From: Pseudomonadota bacterium
GTDB lineage: Bacteria; Desulfobacterota; Binatia; UBA1149
Length of the DNA: 54,115 bases
Reading direction: 5' to 3'
Assembly (NCBI GenBank): GCA_014382245.1
Contig: JACNKC010000056.1
Coordinates: 1-54,115 of the forward strand
Shown: positions 773 through 41,983 of the stretch, piece by piece
How positions within the stretch are numbered: the first letter of the stretch is position 1
How the letters are laid out: the number at the start of each line of letters is the position of its first letter
Notes under the pieces: generated by a model
What the model saw: the letters and a program-made list of their open reading frames with translations, nothing else
What the model was told of the DNA's origin: nothing
Database searches by the model: none
Made by a program: the position numbers and the translations under genes

Positions 773-843
773 CCACTCGACCCGCTGCCTGCCCGGGGCC
801 TGTCCGGGCCCGTCACCACCGTTCAATTACATGGCTGTCGTAG

Positions 844-868
844 CCGTAAAGACCCGCCGGGCTTACGG
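844..868. repeat. Inverted repeat CCGTAA/TTACGG between the nuclease and vapBC
   Basis: Perfect 6-bp arms CCGTAA (844-849) and TTACGG (863-868) flank a GC-rich centre that can pair further. It lies 70-95 bases after the nuclease stop and about 40 bases before the vapBC promoter. No U-tract follows, so it is either a weak terminator or a protein-binding site. The remaining bases 773-843 hold nothing recognisable apart from a GC hairpin around 800-818. Confidence 0.35.
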
Positions 869-909
869 TATATGGGTCGCGGGCACGGCCGCTGGAGGAG
901 GGAATCATC

Positions 910-945
910 TTGACAGGACAATCTGCCATATGTATGCTTACAGAT
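910..945 (+). promoter_or_regulatory. Sigma70-type promoter of vapBC, probably leaderless, with a possible operator
   Basis: A perfect -35 TTGACA (910-915) is followed by a 17-base spacer and the -10 hexamer TATGCT (933-938). The expected start of transcription falls at about 945, directly on the vapB ATG at 946, so the mRNA may be leaderless. An imperfect inverted repeat with arms ATCTG (921-925) and CAGAT (941-945) overlaps the -10, as expected if VapB represses its own operon. A competing reading is translation from the TTG at 910, which has a good GGAGG upstream, but then the promoter motif would be coding. Confidence 0.6.
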
Positions 946-1182
946 ATGAAAAAGACTACGCTCATCCTTGAAGACGGCTGCATGGAAGGGGTGCGTCGCC
1001 TGGCCAACGAGCAGGGCCGAACCGTAACTGCCATCGTGGGCGAACTGCTTGTCGAAGGAGTGCAGCGCCGGCTTGAGCCGCGAGAGCCCTGGCCCCTGGA
1101 CCTGCCGAGCTTCGACATGGGCACCCCGGAGGTAGATATAGCCGACCGCGAGGCCCTCGATCGCTTGATGGCCGATGACTGA
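946..1182 (+). CDS. vapB: VapB-like ribbon-helix-helix antitoxin
   Basis: This 78-residue protein begins MKKTTLILEDG and continues into a short helix-turn region, as in Arc/MetJ ribbon-helix-helix antitoxins. The first strand would bind operator DNA and the C-terminal tail (rich in Pro, Asp and Glu) would wrap the toxin. Its stop codon overlaps the start of the next gene by 8 bases, the usual arrangement in type II toxin-antitoxin pairs. An alternative in-frame TTG start at 910 with a strong Shine-Dalgarno would add 12 residues. ATG 946 is preferred because the domain starts there and a promoter occupies the upstream bases. Family by fold and context; no specific subfamily is claimed. Confidence 0.75.
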   Translation: MKKTTLILEDGCMEGVRRLANEQGRTVTAIVGELLVEGVQRRLEPREPWPLDLPSFDMGTPEVDIADREALDRLMADD

Positions 1183-1675
1183 TCCGGAGAGGCGGGCAGG
1201 GCAGGCGTTGCAAAAGGACTCCGGCAAAGTCGCCGCGCCGGGCGTGGTCGACACCAACGTCCTCGTCTACGCTGCCAATTCGGGCGCGGCAGAGCAGGAG
1301 GTCGCGCGAAGAATGCTCCAAGCCGCCGCAGCTGATCCGGCGCCCTGGTATCTGACCGAGGGAATCGTCTACGAGTTTCTGCGTGTCAGTACCCACCCAC
1401 GGGTAATGAAGTCTCCCTTGCGAGCAGGGCAGGCGCTGTCTTTCGTGGAACGGTTGCTTGCCGTGGACGCTTTTCGCTTACTCAGGGCAGGCCCACGCCA
1501 CTGGGAGTTACTCGCTGACCTTGCTGCTTCGGTTCACGGTGCCGCGGGAAGCCTGTTTTTCGATCTCAGGACGGCGGTGCTCATGCGTGAGCACGGGGTC
1601 AGGAGGATCTACACCGCCGACAAAGATTTCAGCCGCTTCGAGGGGATAGACCCGATAAACCCCTTCGTGGTCTGA
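1175..1675 (+). CDS. vapC: VapC-like PIN-domain ribonuclease toxin
   Basis: A 166-residue PIN-domain protein; such toxins cleave RNA with a cluster of acidic residues binding Mg2+ or Mn2+. The expected acidic residues are all visible: Asp26 in VVDTNVLVYA, Glu67 in VYEFL, Asp130 in FFDLRTAV and Asp149 in TADKDF. The first 22 residues before the PIN core are longer than usual, so translation might start a little later, but the ATG at 1175 overlaps vapB and suggests translational coupling. Catalytic residues are intact, so the toxin is probably active. The next 80 bases contain a GC hairpin (1682-1701) without a U-tract. Confidence 0.88.
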   Translation: MTDPERRAGQALQKDSGKVAAPGVVDTNVLVYAANSGAAEQEVARRMLQAAAADPAPWYLTEGIVYEFLRVSTHPRVMKSPLRAGQALSFVERLLAVDAFRLLRAGPRHWELLADLAASVHGAAGSLFFDLRTAVLMREHGVRRIYTADKDFSRFEGIDPINPFVV

Positions 1676-1754
1676 GCGGGACCGGCCGGCGACCGGGCCG
1701 GCTGGATTTCCGCGCCGCGGGATTCAGCCCGTTACCGGCTGTGAACGGAATTGT

Positions 1755-1919
1755 ATAGTAAAAGACGCCGAAACCAGGCTCAGCCGCCGAGGCCTGACCG
1801 ATCCTCCTGCGGGGAAAGAGCAAACAGAATCTCTCTACGGCTTTCGGCCATTTGCGCCGGGAGGCAAGGTGGTCACGAACCAGGAAATAAATCGTCTGCG
1901 CGAAGAAGACGCTTACTGA
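1755..1919 (+). pseudogene. Remnant of a second antitoxin (C-terminal part)
   Basis: A frame ending at TGA 1917-1919 reads ...SLYGFRPFAPGGKVVTN... and ends RLREEDAY. This resembles the C-terminal tail of small antitoxins paired with PIN toxins. No ATG, GTG or TTG start and no ribbon-helix-helix segment is found in frame upstream, so the N-terminal half appears to be lost. It ends 4 bases before the start of the broken PIN gene, the spacing expected of a former toxin-antitoxin operon. The assignment rests on local similarity recalled from the family and on position, so confidence is limited. Confidence 0.4.
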
Positions 1920-1923
1920 GTTC

Positions 1924-2240
1924 ATGCGCGCACTCCTCGACCTTAACGTATTAGTTTCCCTCCTGGATTCGGAGCATTCCATGCACCGGCAGGCCAGGCT
2001 TTGGCTTGGCGACAACGCTGAGCAGGGATGGGCCCCGTACACGAATACTGGCCTGATGACCTGAGCTTGCTTGATCCGCAGGTGGTTGACCGCAGCCGAA
2101 TTCACGGCCCGAAACAACTCACCGATCTCTATCTTCTTGCGCTGGCTGTTCGCCACGGTGGGCGGCTGGTTACTTTTGACCAGGGTATTCCACTTGCCGC
2201 GGCGCGAGGTGCTCACCGGGCTAACCTGCTGGTCATTTGA
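1924..2240 (+). pseudogene. Broken VapC-family PIN toxin (internal deletion and frameshift)
   Basis: The ATG at 1924 opens with MRALLDLNVLVSLLDSEH and continues to about GDNAEQGWA near 2033, a normal VapC N-terminus with its first catalytic Asp. That frame stops at 2062. The C-terminal half follows in another frame: HEYWPDDLSLLD, then GPKQLTDLYLLALAV and GGRLVTFDQGIP, ending at 2240. About 35-40 residues normally lying between these blocks, including the conserved Glu region, are missing, and the junction is out of frame near 2025-2040. The simplest explanation is a small deletion that inactivated the toxin. An intact VapBC lies immediately upstream. Confidence 0.75.
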
Positions 2241-25402: not shown

Positions 25403-28400
25403 TTAGCGACAGCGCAGGGTTTTGCCGTTAGAAGACGTTGCGCAGGGCGGCGTCGGTCCCGTCCAGAAATCGTCGCCCACGGTCATCGTTATTTCGAATT
25501 CCGACACGCCGGTGGCCCCGCTCGCGTCGGTGTCCTTGGCGATGATCTTGACCTTGAAGGGGTTGCCCGAAATTCCCAGCGTCACCCTCGAAAGGCCCGA
25601 AGCGTGGGGAATCCCTCGCTGGGCTTTCCAACGCCACTTGCTACCCCTCAGTTGCCAGCCCGGATCGCCGGCGTCGATGGTCGTCTGGATGGCAACCACG
25701 TTGCCTACCTCGAGCAGTACCGTGAAATCCTCGTTTGAAGGCGTGAACGACGCCCCGCTACCGTCGAGCGCATCGCTCTTGAGCACGATCTTGTGCTGTC
25801 CGGGGGGGCGGTTAAGGCGCGAAGCCTTCAGTATCCTGGTGTGGAAGACTCCGTTGGCACTGCTGCAGCCGCTTTCGTCAAAGCTGCAGTCGACCGCGCA
25901 GGCCAGCGCGCCGCCCGAGTAGCCCAGGCCGATGCAAGTCTGTCCGCCGAGATCATTGCCGTCGCAGGCTTCTGCACCCTCGCGCACGCCGTCGCCGCAC
26001 ACGGGCGGGCTCGTGCAGCCGCTTTCGTCAAAGCTGCAGTCGACCGCGCAGGCCAGCGCGCCGCCCGAGTAGCCCAGGCCGATGCAAGTCTGTCCGCCGA
26101 GATCATTGCCGTCGCAGGCTTCTGCACCCTCGCGCACGCCGTCGCCGCACACGGGCGGTGCCGGGGGCGTGCTGTTGGGATCTGCGGGGTCTGAGCCCGC
26201 CCGGGTTTCGGTGGTGTCGAAGAAGCCGTCTTCGTCACGATCGAGGGCCAGGCGCGTGCCCGAGCCGGGGGGCACACAGGTGTAAGTTATTTCCTGGCCG
26301 GCGACAGTCGCGAGAAGCCGTACGTCGTCGGCTGCCATGGCCGGCTCGCCGTTGATGTCGAGGGAAAACGTTCCGCCGTTAACGTAAAGCGCGCCGCGTT
26401 GCTCGCCCGCCAGCGTTCCCCTGGCCACGAGCTCGCAGTCGCCGGCTTCGTCTCGGGCAATGAGCAGGGCTATGCGGTCAACTATGGCCTGGGAGTTGAG
26501 GTTGGTGGGCGTGGCCGTCAGCTGCTGGCCCACGGCCGGGGCCAGGCCGGTGTCGAACGCGAGCATGAAGGCTTCGAGCTGGCGCTGCTCGACGTCGTTG
26601 ACCTGGAACACCGGTGCCGCGAAGAAATCGAAGAGCGTCGGGATGGCACCGTCGTGCAGGAATCCGCTTTCGGCCACCTGCGGTCCGGCGGCGTTGAACT
26701 CGCCGAGCTTGTCGTAGGCGTTGCGAAGATGGGGTACCTTGAATTCCTGCGACTCGCCTTCAAAGGTCGAAAATCCACCGGTGCCGAGCGGCAGGTTGTG
26801 GCAGCCTTCGCAGGTGGCGATGACGTCGTGGTTGCCGTTCACGAAAAGATTGGCCCCGGCGGCCTGCTGGGCGGTGAGGCTGCCGTCGAGATTGGCCACC
26901 GGGTTTGGCGGGTAGCGCACCTGCAGGATGAAATCGGTGTAGGCCTGCATCTGTTGGGCCGTGAGCGGCAGGGCCGTGCCCATGAGGCCCACGAAGGCAC
27001 CGTTGAACTGCTTGAAGCTGAGGTCCTCGTTGAGCGGATCGCCGGTGCCGCCGTTGCGGTCGCCGCGCCAGTGCATGGAGCCGGCGCCGTCCATGCCCCT
27101 GAGGCTCTGCGTGGTCATCGGGCCCTTGGCGGGGTGAAAGGGATCGCCGCTGCCTATGATGGGAAACGGGTTGGGGTTGGGCTCCAGCTGGCCGAAGGGG
27201 TCGCCGAGGTTCCAGGCCTTGCGATCCATGTCAGCCGAGAAGTGACAGGTGGCACAGGAGTTGTCGCCGTGTCCCGAGGTGAGCGTGGTGTCGTAGAGAA
27301 AGCGCCGGCCGTCGCGCACGCTGGCCGGTTCGGGGTCGTAGCCCAGGGCCACGGTGCCCAGCTCGCTGGCGCTGCCGGTGTCCACCAGCGATATGGTCTT
27401 GTCAAAAAGGTTGAGCACGTACAGCCGCGAGTGCCCCTCGTGCAGGGCTACTCCCACGGGGCCCGCGCCCACGGTTATGCGATTGGTCACGGTGCCGGTG
27501 GCGTCTATCTCGCCCACCAGGCCTGAACCGAAGGCCGCTATCCAGGCCCGCGTGCCCGCCGCGTTGAAGACGAGGTCGAGCGGCATGCCGAGGCTGTCGG
27601 CTCGTTCCGACGGCGGGCCGGGGCTGGTGGAATAGTCAACGTGGGGGTTGAGGTGAACCGCCGCCGGCGTGCTGCCGCTTATGATGCTGACCCGCTGCTC
27701 GGCGATGTGGCCGCGCAGCACCGGCTCGAAGCGCACGTGGTTGCGCGCGTCCTGGTTGGTGACGTAAACGTCGCCCGTGGCCGGGTTGACGGCCATGTTG
27801 AACAGCATGGAGCCCACCCCGGTGGCAAAGCCGGTTTCAACCGGCGGGTCGGAGTCGGCGTCTATGGCAAACACGTCTTGGTCGGGCAGGTCGAAGGGCA
27901 CAAAAGAACTCCAGTCGCGGCCGTCGGCGTCGAGCCAGTTGCCCGAGCCATCAAACTTGAGGATCAGCCCGGTCTCGGGCTGGTTGGGCGTTGAGCCTGG
28001 CGGAAATGAAGCCGCACCGCCGTTGGGTGTGACCAGCACTTCGGGTATGACAATCGTCTGGCTGCCCGAGTGCAGTATGGCCGCGTACACGGTCGAGCCA
28101 TCGGGCGTGACGGCCAGCGCGCGCGGCTTGTCGCCGAACAGCACCACGACGTCCGCTTGCGCGGAGGGCGTGTCGGCATCAATGACCCACACGTCGCTGC
28201 GGCCTACGCCGGGGGTTGTGAGTTGCGGATCAAAGGGCAGGGCCTGGCCGCGATGCGCGCAGGCCACGAAGATCTTGTTGCCCGCGCTGCCACCCACCAC
28301 GATGTCGCGCGGCTCGTCCCCGACCAGGATCGTGGCCACCACTCGCGCGGTGGCGGGGTTGCTCACGTCGACCAGGCTGACACTGTCCGACAGGTGGTTG

Positions 28401-28729
28401 GATACCCACAGCTGGTTGTTGCCACGAGCGGCCAGCGCCACCGGCTCGAGTCCAACCGCTACCACACCGGCACGGGCCAGGCTGCCGTCGCCCAACACGT
28501 CGAAGATCTCGACGCGGTTGTCGTGGGTGTTGGCGGCGTACAGCCGGGTGCCGTCGGCCGACAACGCCAGCGGGCGAACAGGTACCGACTCGAACAGGGT
28601 GTATGATCCCTGGGCGAATACAGGCACCGCAACAAGCAGCAGTGAGACAGACAGCGCCAGTGTACCCAGGAGGCGGGGCGCTGGGGCAATGCGACGGGGG
28701 CCAAACGCTGGGCGACGGTTGTGCGGCAT
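25403..28729 (-). CDS. Secreted beta-propeller / di-heme cytochrome c peroxidase-like protein with Cys-rich repeats
   Basis: A 1108-residue secreted protein. ATG 28729 starts an Arg-rich signal peptide with a core LLGTLALSVSLLLVAVPVFA. Residues about 35-470 are a YncE-type beta-propeller (repeated LALSADGTRLYAAN-like strands). Residues about 480-800 resemble di-heme cytochrome c peroxidase/MauG proteins, with heme motifs C492-ATC-H496 and C640-EGC-H644 and the block MTTQSLRGMDGAGSMHWRGDRNG. Two identical Cys-rich repeats (about 858-955) follow, encoded by a perfect 144-bp duplication. The last 145 residues are the recurring secreted module (SKWRWKAQRG, LSRVTLG, VKIIAKDT). A periplasmic or outer-surface redox role is likely; whether it is peroxidase, oxidase or electron conduit is open. 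Confidence 0.82.
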   Translation of the reverse strand: MPHNRRPAFGPRRIAPAPRLLGTLALSVSLLLVAVPVFAQGSYTLFESVPVRPLALSADGTRLYAANTHDNRVEIFDVLGDGSLARAGVVAVGLEPVALAARGNNQLWVSNHLSDSVSLVDVSNPATARVVATILVGDEPRDIVVGGSAGNKIFVACAHRGQALPFDPQLTTPGVGRSDVWVIDADTPSAQADVVVLFGDKPRALAVTPDGSTVYAAILHSGSQTIVIPEVLVTPNGGAASFPPGSTPNQPETGLILKFDGSGNWLDADGRDWSSFVPFDLPDQDVFAIDADSDPPVETGFATGVGSMLFNMAVNPATGDVYVTNQDARNHVRFEPVLRGHIAEQRVSIISGSTPAAVHLNPHVDYSTSPGPPSERADSLGMPLDLVFNAAGTRAWIAAFGSGLVGEIDATGTVTNRITVGAGPVGVALHEGHSRLYVLNLFDKTISLVDTGSASELGTVALGYDPEPASVRDGRRFLYDTTLTSGHGDNSCATCHFSADMDRKAWNLGDPFGQLEPNPNPFPIIGSGDPFHPAKGPMTTQSLRGMDGAGSMHWRGDRNGGTGDPLNEDLSFKQFNGAFVGLMGTALPLTAQQMQAYTDFILQVRYPPNPVANLDGSLTAQQAAGANLFVNGNHDVIATCEGCHNLPLGTGGFSTFEGESQEFKVPHLRNAYDKLGEFNAAGPQVAESGFLHDGAIPTLFDFFAAPVFQVNDVEQRQLEAFMLAFDTGLAPAVGQQLTATPTNLNSQAIVDRIALLIARDEAGDCELVARGTLAGEQRGALYVNGGTFSLDINGEPAMAADDVRLLATVAGQEITYTCVPPGSGTRLALDRDEDGFFDTTETRAGSDPADPNSTPPAPPVCGDGVREGAEACDGNDLGGQTCIGLGYSGGALACAVDCSFDESGCTSPPVCGDGVREGAEACDGNDLGGQTCIGLGYSGGALACAVDCSFDESGCSSANGVFHTRILKASRLNRPPGQHKIVLKSDALDGSGASFTPSNEDFTVLLEVGNVVAIQTTIDAGDPGWQLRGSKWRWKAQRGIPHASGLSRVTLGISGNPFKVKIIAKDTDASGATGVSEFEITMTVGDDFWTGPTPPCATSSNGKTLRCR
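25865..26158. repeat. Perfect 144-bp tandem duplication (period 150 bp)
   Basis: Positions 25865-26008 and 26015-26158 are identical over all 144 bases that I compared. They lie in frame in the cytochrome gene and encode two copies of a Cys-rich repeat (VCGDGVREGAEACDGNDLGG and following). Complete identity at synonymous sites means a very recent duplication or gene conversion. Confidence 0.9.
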
Positions 28730-28940
28730 GCCCGTATTTACAACGCACGCGGGGTGTTTCGCAAGAGCAAATAGCGCTTTGCCCTGCCCCGGAGACTGGA
28801 AACAGCTTCTGCGCTTGGATAAACACTCGTAGTCGGCCCTGTTATATCTGTCGCCGCGCGAGTATATTCCCCGGCTCGACCGGGGGGGCGCAGCGCCGGT
28901 AGAGCAGGACCAGGGGTCCGCAAAGGAGATCAAACAAGAC

Positions 28941-30173
28941 ATGGGAAACGCTTATATTCTTGACGCCGTCCGCACGCCCAGGGGCAAGGGCAAGTCCTCG
29001 GGCCGCCTGCACGAAACCCACCCCCAGGAGCTGCTTGCAACCTGCCTGAGGGCGCTTCCCGAACGCAGCGACTTCGACCCGCGCGAGGTCGAGGACGTGG
29101 TCGTGGGCTGCGTGACCGAGACCGGTGAGCAGGGTGGCTGCGTCGCCCGGCACTCGGTGCTGGCCGCGCAGTGGCCGCAGGAAGTAACCGGCGTGTCGCT
29201 CAACCGCTACTGCGGCAGCGGTCAGCAGGCCGTCAACTTTGCCATGATGGGCTGCGCGGCCGGTTTCCAGGATCTCGTGGTGGGCGGCGGCGTGGAGAGC
29301 ATGTCGAGGGTTCCCATGGGCGCCGACAAGTCGGGGCTGGACGGTCACAACCCGGCGCTTCGAGAGCTGCACCCCCTGGTGCCGCAGGGCATTTCGGCCG
29401 ACCTCATTGCCACCTGCGAGGGCTTTACCCGTGATGATTGCGACCAGTGGGCAGCTTCGAGCCAGGCCCGCTGCGAGCAGGCCGTGGCCGACGATCGTTT
29501 CGCCGCGAGCATGGTGCCGGTGTGCAACCCCGATGGCGAGGTCATGCTCGACCGCGACGAACACCCTCGACCAGGCACGACGGCCGAGAGCCTGGCTGCC
29601 CTGCCCCTGTCGTTCGACCAGATGGGCGACTACGTGCAGAAGGGCGACGAACTCAGCTTTGACCAGAAGGCGGTGTCGGTTTATCCCGAGCTGGACGGCA
29701 TCAAGCACGTGCACCACGCGGGCAACGCCAGCGGCATCGTCGACGGTGCCTCGGCGGTACTCGTGTGTTCGGACGCCTACCTGGCCGCCCATCCGGGCAG
29801 CAAGCCGCGTGCGCGCGTTGTATCGATGGCCACCATGGGCGACGAGCCGGTCATAATGCTCACCGCGCCGGCCCCGGCATCGCAGCTCGCGCTCAAGAAG
29901 GCCGGCATGACCTGGGACGATATCGATCTAGTGGAAGTCAACGAGGCCTTCGCCGCCGTAGTGCTCAAGTTTCTCAAGGAAACCGGCTATGACGGCGACA
30001 AGGTCAACGTCAACGGCGGGGCCATTGCCCTGGGTCACCCCCTGGGGGCCACTGGCGGCATGCTGATGGGTACGGCGCTCGACGAGCTCGAACGCCGCGA
30101 CGCGACCACGGCGCTGGTGACCATGTGTATAGGCGGCGGCATGGGCATAGCCACCGTCATAGAAAGAGTCTGA
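28941..30173 (+). CDS. fadA: Acetyl-CoA C-acyltransferase (thiolase)
   Basis: Cleaves 3-ketoacyl-CoA with CoA in the last step of beta-oxidation. The 410-residue thiolase has the nucleophile Cys91 in [11 protein letters not shown], the loop [26 protein letters not shown], the catalytic His in [16 protein letters not shown], and the second Cys in [10 protein letters not shown] strong AGGAG site lies 12 bases before the ATG. The next gene starts 13 bases after its stop, so the thiolase heads a four-gene unit with an F420-type oxidoreductase, a selenoprotein and a membrane protein. Confidence 0.93.
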
Positions 30174-30185
30174 GGGGGAAGCAGG

Positions 30186-31106
30186 ATGAAGATAGGAATA
30201 TTTGCCGGTGGAGGAGAGTCCACTCTCGAGCAAGCAGTAGAGCGCATAGTACAGGCCGAGCGCGACGGTTTTGCGTCGGCGTGGCTGGCCAACATTTTTG
30301 CGCTCGACGCGCTCACGGTGCTGGCGCTGGCCGGCCGCGAGACTTCTCGCATAGAGCTCGGCACGGCCGTGGTGCCTACCTACCCGCGGCATCCGCACTC
30401 GCTGGCCCAGCAGGCGGCCACCGTCAACGCGGCCTGCGGCGGCCGCTTGTCGCTGGGCGTAGGGCGTAGTCACAAGCTGGTCATCGAAGACATGCTGGGC
30501 TTGACCTACGACAAGCCCATCGGCCACATGCGCGATTATCTCGAGGTGTTGCGCTCGCTGTCGGACACCGGCAACTGCGCTTACACGGGCGACCAGTACA
30601 CGGTCAACGCGCCCCTGCAGGTAGAGGAGGGGGTGGGTTTCGGCTTGTTCGTGGGCGCGCTCATGCCGCGCATGCTCGAACTTTGCGGCCAGCTCTGCGA
30701 AGGCACACTCACCTGGATGAGCGGTCCGAAGCACATCGAGAAGAACATCGCGCCGGTGCTCAACGCCGCGGCCTCGGCCGCCGGGCGGCCCGCGCCCCGG
30801 GTCATAGCGTCGTTGCCGGTCTGCGTGACCTCCGACGAAGCGCGCGCGCGCGAAGAGGCGGCGAGACTGTTTACCATCTACGGCAGCCTGCCGGTCTACA
30901 GGGCCTGCATGGACGAGGAGGGAGCCGACGGTCCGGCTGACCTCGCCCTGGTGGGTGATGCCGGGCAGGTGAAGGAGGCCATCAACAGGGTGCGCGACGC
31001 TGGCGCCACTGATTTTTACCCGGCGGTGTTTCCCTCGGGTGTCGAAGGCGAGGACTCCGAACGCGCGTCCTACGACCTGATGGCGTCACTGGGGGGCGAA
31101 GTCTGA
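30186..31106 (+). CDS. F420-dependent LLM-class oxidoreductase (TIGR03564-like)
   Basis: A 306-residue luciferase-like (beta/alpha)8 protein of the bacterial-luciferase/F420-dependent superfamily. Features are [19 protein letters not shown] at the N-terminus, [41 protein letters not shown], and a C-terminal segment with [16 protein letters not shown] typical of the group. The overall pattern is that of the MSMEG_4879-type F420 subfamily. F420 genes are not in the window. Its stop codon overlaps the proposed CTG start of the selenoprotein gene (bases CTGA), so the two are translationally coupled. Confidence 0.85.
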
Positions 31107-31948
31107 AAACCGTAGACTACGTCGGGCGTACGCGTGAGCTCTACGAACCGCTGCCGGCTTACCGCTGGGTCGACAACAGCGGGGAGCCCGTGCCCTGGAC
31201 TCCGCTGTCGCGGCCGCTGGCCGAGTGCCGCGTGGCCCTCGCCGGTTCGGGCGGGGTGCACCTGCAGGGGCAGCAGGCGTTTCACTTCAGCGACGACACC
31301 AGCATTCGCGAGATCCCGGCCGACAGCGAAAGCGGCGACCTGCGCGTGTCGCATTTTGGCTACCCGGTGGGTGACGCGCGCAAAGATCCGAACTGCGTGT
31401 TTCCGCTTGAGCGGCTGCGCGAGCTCGCCGACCGGGACGTTATAGCCGGTGTCGCACCCACGGCCTTTACTTTCATGGGAGGCATATACTCGCATCGGCG
31501 GGTGGCCGAAGAGCTCATCCCTGCACTGCTCGATGGCCTGCGCAGCCAGGAGGTCGATCTTTTTCTGCTCGTGCCGGCTTGACCGGTGTGTCACCAGACC
31601 GTCGGTCTGGTTGCAAGGGCGGTGGAGGCGGCGGGCATAGCCACCATGACGGTATCGGTGGGCCTGGACATCACGCGCCTCGTGCGGCCACCGCGGACGG
31701 CGTTTCTCAATTATCCCATGGGCAACGAGACCGGCCGCCCCGGTCGCGCAGATGAACAACGGGTGATAGTGCAAAAGACTCTCGAGGCTGCCTTGAGCAT
31801 CAAGCAGGCCGGTGAGATAGTCGATCTCGGCATGACCATGGAAGGCGAGGCGCCGGGTGGCGGCCCGTGGCAGGACTGGGTGTACACCAAGGAGTTTCGC
31901 GATAGCTTGATGCGGTCGCGTTCGCAGATCGACGGAGGAAAACAATGA
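31103..31948 (+). CDS. Selenoprotein of the glycine/betaine/D-proline reductase subunit B (GrdB) family, Sec160
   Basis: A 281-residue protein read through an in-frame TGA at 31580-31582 as selenocysteine. Before it the frame reads VDYVGRTRELYEP, ECRVALAGSGGVHLQGQQAF, THFGY-like VSHFGYPVGDARKDPN and TFMGGIYSHRRVAEEL, all typical of GrdB/PrdB-family proteins. After it the frame continues PVCHQTVGLVARAVEAAG, NYPMGNETGRPG and MTMEGEAPGGGPWQDW. The redox motif is therefore U-x-x-C. A bacterial SECIS-like hairpin follows immediately. No ATG, GTG or TTG fits the conserved N-terminus; the best start is CTG 31103 overlapping the previous stop, while GTG 31190 would remove about 29 conserved residues. 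The reaction is unknown in this context: other GrdA/GrdE subunits are absent, so it may be a stand-alone thiol/selenol reductase. Confidence 0.85.
31593..31611 (+). promoter_or_regulatory. Bacterial SECIS-like stem-loop downstream of UGA
   Basis: ACCAGACC (31593-31600) and GGTCTGGT (31604-31611) form a perfect 8-bp stem with a 3-base loop GUC. The loop G lies 18 bases after the UGA at 31580-31582. Known bacterial SECIS elements have a small apical loop with a G in its first two positions, 16-37 bases from the UGA, and this hairpin meets each condition. SelB with Sec-tRNA should bind it. Confidence 0.82.
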
Positions 31949-32349
31949 CTGAAGCTGGAAGAGACAAGACGCTGAGGGTTTTTGCGCTGTTGTTCGGGTT
32001 GCTGGCCGTTTCCAATTTTCTCAAGCCCCTGCAGTTGAGCCCCGACGTCGGTTTCGTGCTTTTCGGCACGCGACTTGAGGGCACGGCCAACTCGATTGCG
32101 GGCCCGGCTTTCGGCCTTTATCTAGCGGCCTACGCGCTCGCCCTGTGGCGACGGCTGCCGGCCGCGCTGCCACTGGCCCTGATCTACGTGGCCTACGTGG
32201 CGGCCAACCTCGTGTTGTTCAACATGACGCCGCTTGCCGACGAAAGCGGGCTGCTCTTTGGCCTGGCCTACACTGCCGTGGCGCTGGGCGTTTCGGGTGG
32301 CTCGGCCTGGCTGCTGTGGACGGGCCGCCCCCGGTCCGACCAGGGCTGA
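31945..32349 (+). CDS. Small integral membrane protein (134 aa)
   Basis: The ATG overlaps the selenoprotein stop by 4 bases (ATGA), so it is translationally coupled. The protein has four predicted membrane helices: about residues 10-28, 45-66, 74-92 and 100-124, ending with a short basic tail. I do not recognise a family. Its strict coupling to the selenoprotein and F420-type oxidoreductase suggests a membrane partner, perhaps an anchor or quinone interface, but that is inference. Confidence 0.7.
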   Translation: MTEAGRDKTLRVFALLFGLLAVSNFLKPLQLSPDVGFVLFGTRLEGTANSIAGPAFGLYLAAYALALWRRLPAALPLALIYVAYVAANLVLFNMTPLADESGLLFGLAYTAVALGVSGGSAWLLWTGRPRSDQG

Positions 32350-39466: not shown

Positions 39467-41983
39467 ATGACTGCAAGCAAGGAAAGCCGCTTCGCAACGA
39501 TACTCGCGCCGGGCCTTGTACAGGTCCTGGTCGCTCTCGTGGCCTCGGTGGTGGTAGCGATGGCGATTTTCGCTTCGGTAGACCGGGTGGGCAAGAGTTT
39601 TCCCGGGTTCTTCGTCTGGGAGAACCTGGTCGTACCGGCGCTGGGCGAGGCCAACTGGACAGGCGCCGAATCGGGGGTCGAATACCTGTCGTGGCTGCGT
39701 TCGGCCGACGGGCGCACGCTGCGCAACGGGCGCGAGCTCACCGAGATGGTGGAGGGGCTGAGCCCCGGTACCAGCCTCAGCTATGTTTTTGAGAAAGAGG
39801 GACGGCTGGCCGAGGTCGAAGTCGAGGTGATGCGCTTCGGCTGGCGCGAGTGGGTCTCGGTGCTGGGCCTGTTCAACTTCGACGCCGCAGCGCTACTCAT
39901 CCTGGGCATAGTTGTTCTCTACATGAAGCCCGACGACCCCGCCGCGCGCGCGCTGTTTCTCTTCAGTGCCAACGGGGCTGCTTATCTCGCGGCTTCGGCC
40001 GACATGCAGGGCAGTTACCTGCTGCGGATGCCGTACTTCTTTTTCTTCAACCTGTTACCAGCCACTACCTTCTACCTCGTGAGTTGTTTTCCGCTGGGTC
40101 GCATCAGGCGGCGCTGGGAGGACGGGGTGTTCGCGGCCTTGCTCGGCCTGGGCTTCGCCTACGGGATTGCCACCAACTACTTCTATTTTCGCGACCACGA
40201 TCTATTGCTCGTACTTGAGCGAATGAGTTACCTGCCGGTAGCGCTGGGCGCTGTCATGGCCCCGGCCTTCTACGCCTACTATTTTTTCACCACCGACAGC
40301 CTGGTGGTCAGGCAGCGCACCAAGGTGGTGTTGTTCGGCACCGCGTTGGCGTTTGCCCCGATGGCCGTGGTCTTGCCGGCCGTCTTTGTCGGCGGCGCGG
40401 ACTTGCCCGTCAACCTGAGCACGGTGCTGTTCGTGGTCTACCCGGTCAGTATCGGCTACGCGGTGGCCCGCCACGACCTCTTCGGTATCGATCGTGTGAT
40501 CAAGCGAGCCTTGGTCTACACCGTGCTTTCGGCCCTGGTACTGGGCATCTATACCCTGACCCTGGGCACGGTGGATTATCTTTTCGAAGGCATGACGGCG
40601 GCCGCTTCGCGGGTGACCGAGGGCGTACTCATCCTCGGGTTGCTGCTTGCCAGTAACCCCAGCCGTGCGCGCATCCAGGCTTTCGTTGACAGGGTGTACG
40701 ACCGGCGTCGCTACGACTACCGGGGGGCGGTAAGATCGGCGTCGCGCAGTTTCAGCTCGATACTCATCTTCGAAGAACTGGTTCGGGCGGTACTCGAGCT
40801 GGTGGACGAAACCCTGCAGCCGGTGTGTGCCGACATACTGTCGGTTGATAAAGACGGAGCTGTTTACAGGCGAGGGCGCCTGGCCCATGCGGCCGGAGAG
40901 CAGGGTGGCGTGCGCACGGGGCTGGATGGCGCGGCTGCCTCCAGCCTGGCTCCGCTGGCCAGGGGCTTGAACGAAGTTGACCTGCTGGCGGAGGACCGCC
41001 AGGTCCGGGATGGCTACCCATCCGACGTCCAGGACGCCATGCGCGAACTGGGCGCCGTGTTCGTGCTACCCATGCGCCTGGAGGGTCGACTGGTGGGCAT
41101 GGTGTCGGTCGGCCAGCGTCGCGCTGGCGGCTATCACGGCGGCGACGACGTCGAACTTCTGCGAACGGTCTGCGACCAGCTGGCGGTGGCACTCGAGAAC
41201 GCGCAGGCCTATTCGCGCATCGATCAGCTCAACCGCGGACTCGAAGAAAGCAACCTCGAGCTCAACCGTACCAACATCGAGCTGCGCGAGACCCAGGGCC
41301 TGCTGGTGCAGAAAGAACGCCTGGCAGCCGTTGGCGAGTTGTCGGCCGCCGTCGCCCACGCCATACGGAATCCGCTCGCGGGCATCAAGGCCGCCGCCCA
41401 GCTGGCTATCCTTGAAGTCGAACAGGAAGAAGGCGCCGATCTGGACGAACAGGTCGCGCTCAGGGACATAGTGTCGGAGACTGATCGTCTCAGCGACCGC
41501 ATAGCAGCGTTGCTCGATTACTCGCGTCCTTTTGAACCCAGCCTCACGCCGGGGTCGATGGAGAAACTGGCCGCCGAGGTCATGGCCCTGTCAGCCGGCA
41601 AGGCGACCGAGCGTTCCATTGAACTCCACTGCCAGCCCGACCCCGCGCAGCCGCCGGTGCTGATAGACAAGGTGCTGTTCGAACAGGTGATAATGGAGCT
41701 GGTGGCCAACGCCATCGATGCTTCACCCGACGGAGGCAAGGTGCGGGTCGCGTGCGGGCATGACGACGAGCTGGCGTGGATCGAAGTGATCGACAGCGGC
41801 GCGGGCATAAAGCCGGACAAGGCTTCGCGCATCTTTGACCTGTTTTTCACCACCAAGGCGTCGGGCACGGGCTTCGGGCTGGCCACGGTCAAAAAGATCG
41901 TCGATCAGCACGGCGGTACGGTTAGGGCTGGGAACGCCGAGCAGGGCGGGGCTACCTTTCGCGTAGAACTCCCCCTGGTCTGA
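39467..41983 (+). CDS. Membrane histidine kinase (PrsK/NtrB-like, with GAF domain)
   Basis: An 838-residue sensor kinase. The N-terminus has one membrane helix (15-37), a periplasmic region with a PDZ-like segment (NGRELTEMVEGLSPGTSLSYVFEKEG), then about seven more helices (125-395). Residues about 435-570 form a GAF domain (FEELVRAVLELVDETLQPVCADIL ... LEGRLVGMVSVGQRRAGGYHGGDDVELLRTVCDQLAVAL), then a short coiled coil, the phospho-acceptor His631 in AAVAHAIRNPLAGIK, and an HATPase with ELVANAIDASP, GAGI and FTTKASGTGFGLATVKKIV. The region resembles kinases that partner NtrC-type regulators and the PEP-CTERM-associated PrsK. The regulator gene lies tail to tail, 35 bases away. Confidence 0.88.
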   Translation: MTASKESRFATILAPGLVQVLVALVASVVVAMAIFASVDRVGKSFPGFFVWENLVVPALGEANWTGAESGVEYLSWLRSADGRTLRNGRELTEMVEGLSPGTSLSYVFEKEGRLAEVEVEVMRFGWREWVSVLGLFNFDAAALLILGIVVLYMKPDDPAARALFLFSANGAAYLAASADMQGSYLLRMPYFFFFNLLPATTFYLVSCFPLGRIRRRWEDGVFAALLGLGFAYGIATNYFYFRDHDLLLVLERMSYLPVALGAVMAPAFYAYYFFTTDSLVVRQRTKVVLFGTALAFAPMAVVLPAVFVGGADLPVNLSTVLFVVYPVSIGYAVARHDLFGIDRVIKRALVYTVLSALVLGIYTLTLGTVDYLFEGMTAAASRVTEGVLILGLLLASNPSRARIQAFVDRVYDRRRYDYRGAVRSASRSFSSILIFEELVRAVLELVDETLQPVCADILSVDKDGAVYRRGRLAHAAGEQGGVRTGLDGAAASSLAPLARGLNEVDLLAEDRQVRDGYPSDVQDAMRELGAVFVLPMRLEGRLVGMVSVGQRRAGGYHGGDDVELLRTVCDQLAVALENAQAYSRIDQLNRGLEESNLELNRTNIELRETQGLLVQKERLAAVGELSAAVAHAIRNPLAGIKAAAQLAILEVEQEEGADLDEQVALRDIVSETDRLSDRIAALLDYSRPFEPSLTPGSMEKLAAEVMALSAGKATERSIELHCQPDPAQPPVLIDKVLFEQVIMELVANAIDASPDGGKVRVACGHDDELAWIEVIDSGAGIKPDKASRIFDLFFTTKASGTGFGLATVKKIVDQHGGTVRAGNAEQGGATFRVELPLV

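Follow-up and report, generated by a model that had tools for sequence, protein, structure and literature searches.

Does an in-frame UGA at positions 31580-31582 of the window, the 54,115-nucleotide stretch of DNA analysed here, encode selenocysteine (Sec), and what would the resulting protein do in an organism that lacks the partner subunits of the related clostridial reductases? The window is part of a 2.94-Mb metagenome-assembled genome, which is 95% complete. Plain ORF calling gave two ORFs, 31190-31582 and 31586-31948, on the two sides of the UGA, just as the initial annotation, made from the sequence alone, had warned that standard callers would split or truncate the gene. The first ORF is short by about 29 conserved N-terminal residues because no in-frame ATG, GTG or TTG occurs between the last upstream stop and 31190. 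The start codon is likely CTG 31103, since orthologues begin with MPVDYI or VPIDYI at the corresponding place; this CTG overlaps the stop codon of the upstream LLM-class oxidoreductase gene (TGA 31104-31106). The probable CTG start is preserved in three congeneric genomes. Within the N-terminus of the protein, Y6, Y14 and W22 are conserved, and the closest named relative, with 95% protein identity, comes from the Binatota genome UBA1149 (L072). The UGA lies in the motif VPA-U-PVCHQTVGLVAR, which contains the redox motif UPVCHQT exactly as first described.

Table 1. Coordinates of the in-frame UGA, its hairpin and the surrounding genes in the window.
Feature	Position	Strand	Remarks
Acetyl-CoA acyltransferase (thiolase)	28941..30173	+	12 nt before the LLM gene
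F420-dependent LLM-class oxidoreductase	30186..31106	+	TIGR03564 above cut-off; overlaps the predicted selenoprotein gene
Predicted PrdB-like selenoprotein gene	31103..31948	+	281 codons with read-through; predicted Sec at residue 160; stop TGA 31946-31948
In-frame UGA (predicted Sec160)	31580..31582	+	UxxC motif; after a beta strand, at a helix start in the predicted model
SECIS-like hairpin	31593..31611	+	stem ACCAGACC/GGTCTGGT; apical loop GTC 31601-31603, 18 nt after the UGA
Small hydrophobic protein	31945..32349	+	ATGA overlap with the stop of the predicted selenoprotein gene; no Pfam or NCBIfam match

We compared the read-through product with protein families and with related genomes. 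The NCBIfam PrdB profile TIGR04483 matches residues 30-242 across the UGA (E 6.6e-50), confirming that one conserved protein extends over both sides of TGA 31580-31582. Exactly one TGA is present in each of the 19 matches found in 10 genomes of the order, so a sequencing error, which the initial annotation had named as fatal to its reading, is excluded. Among 395 genomes of the phylum, 98 contain a total of 135 PrdB-like matches, and 129 of the at most 132 matches spanning the site have the TGA; six of the 135 were counted as lacking it, three of which stop short of the Sec site. One full-length relative, L050, has GGA (Gly) at about 1900-1902 where its relatives have TGA, by either loss or assembly error. 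No Cys form at the Sec position occurred among the sequences read directly. We also scanned GTDB genomes with two peptide patterns placed away from the Sec site, so that the Sec site itself was not the bait; conservation of DPNCVFP in this set is partly a product of the search pattern. The scan returned 59 loci. All 58 loci that reach the Sec site, whose record titles place them in Binatota, Chloroflexota, Actinomycetota, Pseudomonadota, Rokubacteria and Myxococcota, have TGA, so that column 160 is a UGA codon rather than Cys in these named-genome relatives. The PrdB-like branch extends over at least six phyla and almost never occurs without the UGA.

The hairpin downstream of the UGA has the 8-bp stem and GUC loop originally noted (ACCAGACC-GTC-GGTCTGGT). 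The spacing of 18 bases, given at first for the stem, holds for the apical loop; the stem itself starts 10 nt after the UGA. Published limits for bacterial SECIS elements are a loop of 3-9 nt with G in the first two positions, a stem of 4-16 bp, a spacing of 16-37 nt and a minimum free energy of at most -7.5 (PMC13188914). The hairpin lies inside all of them, as had been claimed, with a 3-nt loop, an 8-bp stem, a spacing of 18 nt and a predicted RNA fold of -20.0 kcal/mol (z -2.4). The window contains 1,249 TGA triplets when both strands are counted. A Watson-Crick stem of at least 8 bp occurs inside the SECIS spacing limits for four of them, and only TGA 31580 additionally has at least 60 open codons on both sides, suggesting that the hairpin is more than a chance occurrence. 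Across 78 distinct sequences, 91.0% of stem cells are paired, compared with 86.6 ± 0.6% (maximum 88.5% in 2,000 trials) when synonymous codons are shuffled within columns, a procedure that keeps the amino acids but not the relatedness of the sequences. Perfect helices are found in 43 of the 78 sequences against 19 ± 3 in the shuffles. The third base of a His/Asn codon covaries with the first base of a Val/Ile codon, giving C-G or U-A pairs, and a Gly third base varies in step with the first base of a Thr/Ser/Ala codon; the covariation in the stem exceeds what the coding constraint would permit. A search of the region against Rfam gave chance matches only and no SECIS family. Elsewhere in the window, the TGA at 40968 (plus strand) lies between open frames and has a 7-bp hairpin at a SECIS-compatible distance; the frame concerned is not the coding frame of the histidine-kinase-like gene in which it lies, and the hairpin is probably due to chance.

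The machinery for selenocysteine insertion is encoded in the same genome: selA, selB and selD form a cluster on contig C125 and a tRNA-Sec with anticodon TCA is found on contig C79, so that all four sel genes are accounted for. Among 16 genomes sampled in the class, the gene is present in 10 of the 11 with selA and in none of the five without a confident selA. Six of the 98 genomes carrying a PrdB-like gene showed no selA, probably because of incompleteness. SelB and tRNA-Sec would read the GUC-loop hairpin and decode UGA 31580 as selenocysteine; this decoding is strongly supported by the genomic evidence, and the initial proposal of recoding gains from the sel machinery, the conserved UGA and the SECIS stem together. 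Residue 160 is almost certainly selenocysteine. Reassignment of UGA to another amino acid such as Trp or Cys would leave the frame open as well, but it is highly improbable, as nothing else was found in its favour, other genes of the window, including the LLM gene, end in TGA, and both a tRNA-Sec and a SECIS stem are present. That the UGA is a real stop separating two proteins, or marks a decayed gene, agrees with the ORFs that mechanical ORF finding places on either side, but can hardly be correct given the conserved frame and UGA, the covarying stem and the complete sel machinery; sequencing error and pseudogene were both ruled out by the TGA counts in the order and the phylum. The SelD gene (L020 1501-2430, minus strand), located beside selB and selA on C125, is another selenoprotein candidate with a UGA and a similar GUC-loop hairpin.

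The assignment to the GrdB family stood only in part. The protein is distantly related to the C-terminal half of GrdB: Pfam GRDB (PF07355) covers the part before the UGA with E 3e-5, at 23.8 bits marginally above the gathering score of 22. PrdB is much closer, and sequence comparison places the protein as PrdB-like rather than GrdB. The full-length GrdB model TIGR01917 scored 22 bits against a cut-off of 602. Both proteins have Sec with UxxC, but in the sampled relatives the GrdB frame runs to about 435 aa or more, includes an N-terminal half and the motif UxxCxxC, and has GrdE beside it, whereas the window protein has 281 aa and UxxCxxT. The GrdB frames that we read (L131, L132) have UGTCTRC, and the third Cys is missing from every short sequence read. 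In a phylogenetic tree, the short proteins are split from GrdB by more than 4 changes per site, a distance to be read with the caveat of long branches. The protein resembles PrdB, the 26-kDa subunit of clostridial D-proline reductase, in size, in UxxC and in a profile match that spans the UGA and almost the whole length of the model; Sec is residue 152 of 242 in Clostridium sticklandii PrdB (PMC3091704) and would be residue 160 of 281 here. Unlike clostridial PrdB, it scores 169.8 bits against the TIGR04483 equivalog cut-off of 300, has no PrdA partner and belongs to a phylum described as aerobic. The tree resolves five motif types, and the window protein is of type A (UPVCHQ). Two other predicted PrdB-like selenoprotein genes with in-frame UGA occur in the same genome, one of type B on contig C59 (L001 1219-2049, minus strand, UGYC) and one of type C on contig C60 (L002 about 788-1993, minus strand, UPFC, with a long C-terminal extension).

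The absence of other glycine or proline reductase subunits, noted at first for the neighbourhood, extends to the whole genome. No PrdA was found over the cut-off in the 395 genomes of the phylum, including the genome of the window; weak matches to TIGR04480 elsewhere, in 15 genomes, fall on GrdE genes in 13 of them. GrdE is absent from the genome of the window, and the same searches were positive in other genomes: 17 of the 395 have GrdE-type PF09338 in 21 copies, and each copy has a GrdB-like frame of at least 435 aa no more than about 2 kb away, but never a short frame. GrdA, found mostly in the same genomes as GrdE, is absent from the genome and, save one marginal match, from the class. These searches support the view that, in this organism, the protein belongs to neither a D-proline reductase nor a glycine reductase complex, and very probably it would work alone, without a pyruvoyl subunit. 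A partner could lie in the unassembled part of the genome, though the absence repeats across many genomes. A role other than that of the clostridial reductases, as proposed in the initial annotation, is likely.

Proteins called 'PrdB' that contain Sec and UxxC ranked with the most abundant selenoproteins in the Sargasso Sea and Global Ocean Sampling (GOS) data, according to the passages on PrdB in the studies published in 2005-2008 (PMC1088965, PMC2398784), and their existence in ocean communities is thus already known. The window protein could simply be this marine 'PrdB' and a genuine proline reductase of known function. The two have in common the family label, UxxC and Sec, a likeness drawn from description, and the relevant passage on GOS counts 235 Sec and 110 Cys sequences (PMC2398784). 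However, none of the 135 matches of the phylum reached the PrdB equivalog cut-off, no PrdA passed its own, and in the passages concerned the function was assigned by homology, which makes a proline reductase quite improbable here. Those passages contain no PrdA test and no division into subtypes; relative to them, what appears to be new is that the branch stands apart from PrdA and GrdE, that forms lacking UGA are nearly absent from the sampled genomes, that it divides into motif types and that it occurs in Binatota. The Binatota have been portrayed as aerobic bacteria capable of methylotrophy and alkane degradation, and selenium use is absent from that main genomic description, in which 'selen' has zero matches (PMC8262859). 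Plain ORF calling cuts genes of this kind in two, and their products would receive the label proline or glycine reductase, which would assign anaerobic amino-acid fermentation to organisms without its other subunits. As Sec has hardly any substitutes in the sequences read, which come from at least six phyla, the branch is well suited to testing why certain enzymes depend on selenium.

The genes of the LLM-class oxidoreductase, the predicted selenoprotein and the small hydrophobic protein overlap in series. The F420-type neighbour named in the initial annotation was confirmed by TIGR03564. It adjoins the selenoprotein gene in six of the eight A-type genomes of the order, and relatives of the small hydrophobic protein are adjacent in five genomes of the order. 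In the window's order, the gene is probably co-transcribed with those of the thiolase, the F420-type oxidoreductase and the small membrane protein. Neighbours change between groups, from LLM in this order to a peroxiredoxin in Binataceae-like genomes and an acyl-CoA ligase or SDR in Acidimicrobiia, and clustering of 642 neighbouring ORFs revealed no partner gene common to all phyla. Because they differ in this way, no neighbour identifies the substrate.

To consider the possible chemistry, we used a predicted AlphaFold2 model (pLDDT 94), in which UxxC follows a beta strand and leads into a helix. A sequence search of solved structures gave no match at E up to 1, and Foldseek none at E up to 0.001; the best hit of the VIA structure comparison was microcystinase C with Z 8.5, near the level that the tool calls a common arrangement and thus no basis for assigning a function. 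For D-proline reductase, the proposed mechanism has the substrate bound to the pyruvoyl group of PrdA and attacked there by the Sec of PrdB; the selenoether is then resolved by a PrdB Cys (PMC3091704). The window protein might likewise be a reductive enzyme cleaving C-N (or C-S, C-halogen) bonds with an unlinked, different carbonyl-binding partner, possibly receiving electrons from the adjacent F420-type oxidoreductase. The PrdB fold and Sec/Cys arrangement, the frequent adjacency of the LLM gene and the CoA-ester genes common nearby agree with such a function, but we consider it unlikely because no PrdA or GrdE-type protein exists in the genome or class, no other partner gene is conserved across phyla, and none of the short sequences read has the third Cys of GrdB.

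Given the lack of a pyruvoyl partner, the simplest interpretation is that the protein functions by itself as a selenol/thiol redox enzyme. The selenolate of Sec160 at the helix N-terminus would attack a small oxidised or electrophilic substrate, for example a hydroperoxide or an activated C-X bond; resolution of the adduct by Cys163 would leave an Se-S bond, to be reduced by thioredoxin or a different thiol donor. A peroxidase activity of GrdB is named in the reference list of PMC3091704 (Grobe et al. 2007), and a peroxiredoxin gene close downstream in seven related loci also speaks for such chemistry. We regard the explanation as a whole, a PrdB-like selenoprotein with selenol/thiol redox chemistry and no pyruvoyl subunit, as reasonably probable, and the specific Cys-resolved reductase or peroxidase chemistry as tentative. 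It is conceivable, if doubtful, that the branch represents a widespread class of single-subunit, pyruvoyl-independent selenoenzymes outside the Stickland anaerobes, with Sec almost without exception, possibly coupled in this order to an F420-type oxidoreductase for an undescribed reductive reaction.

Several other arrangements were seen around these genes. In L077, L082, L083, L084, L085, L087 and L088, the first or second gene downstream of the PrdB-like gene encodes a redoxin/AhpC-TSA peroxiredoxin. In L123, L124 and L125, the PrdB-like gene is flanked by a divergent alpha/beta-hydrolase-like gene and, in L124 and L125, by a conserved downstream protein of about 102 aa. Within the window, the minus strand at 25403-28942 encodes a 1179-aa beta-propeller protein, whose C-terminal part contains two nearly identical Cys-rich repeats (VCGDGVREGAEACDGNDLGGQTC...).
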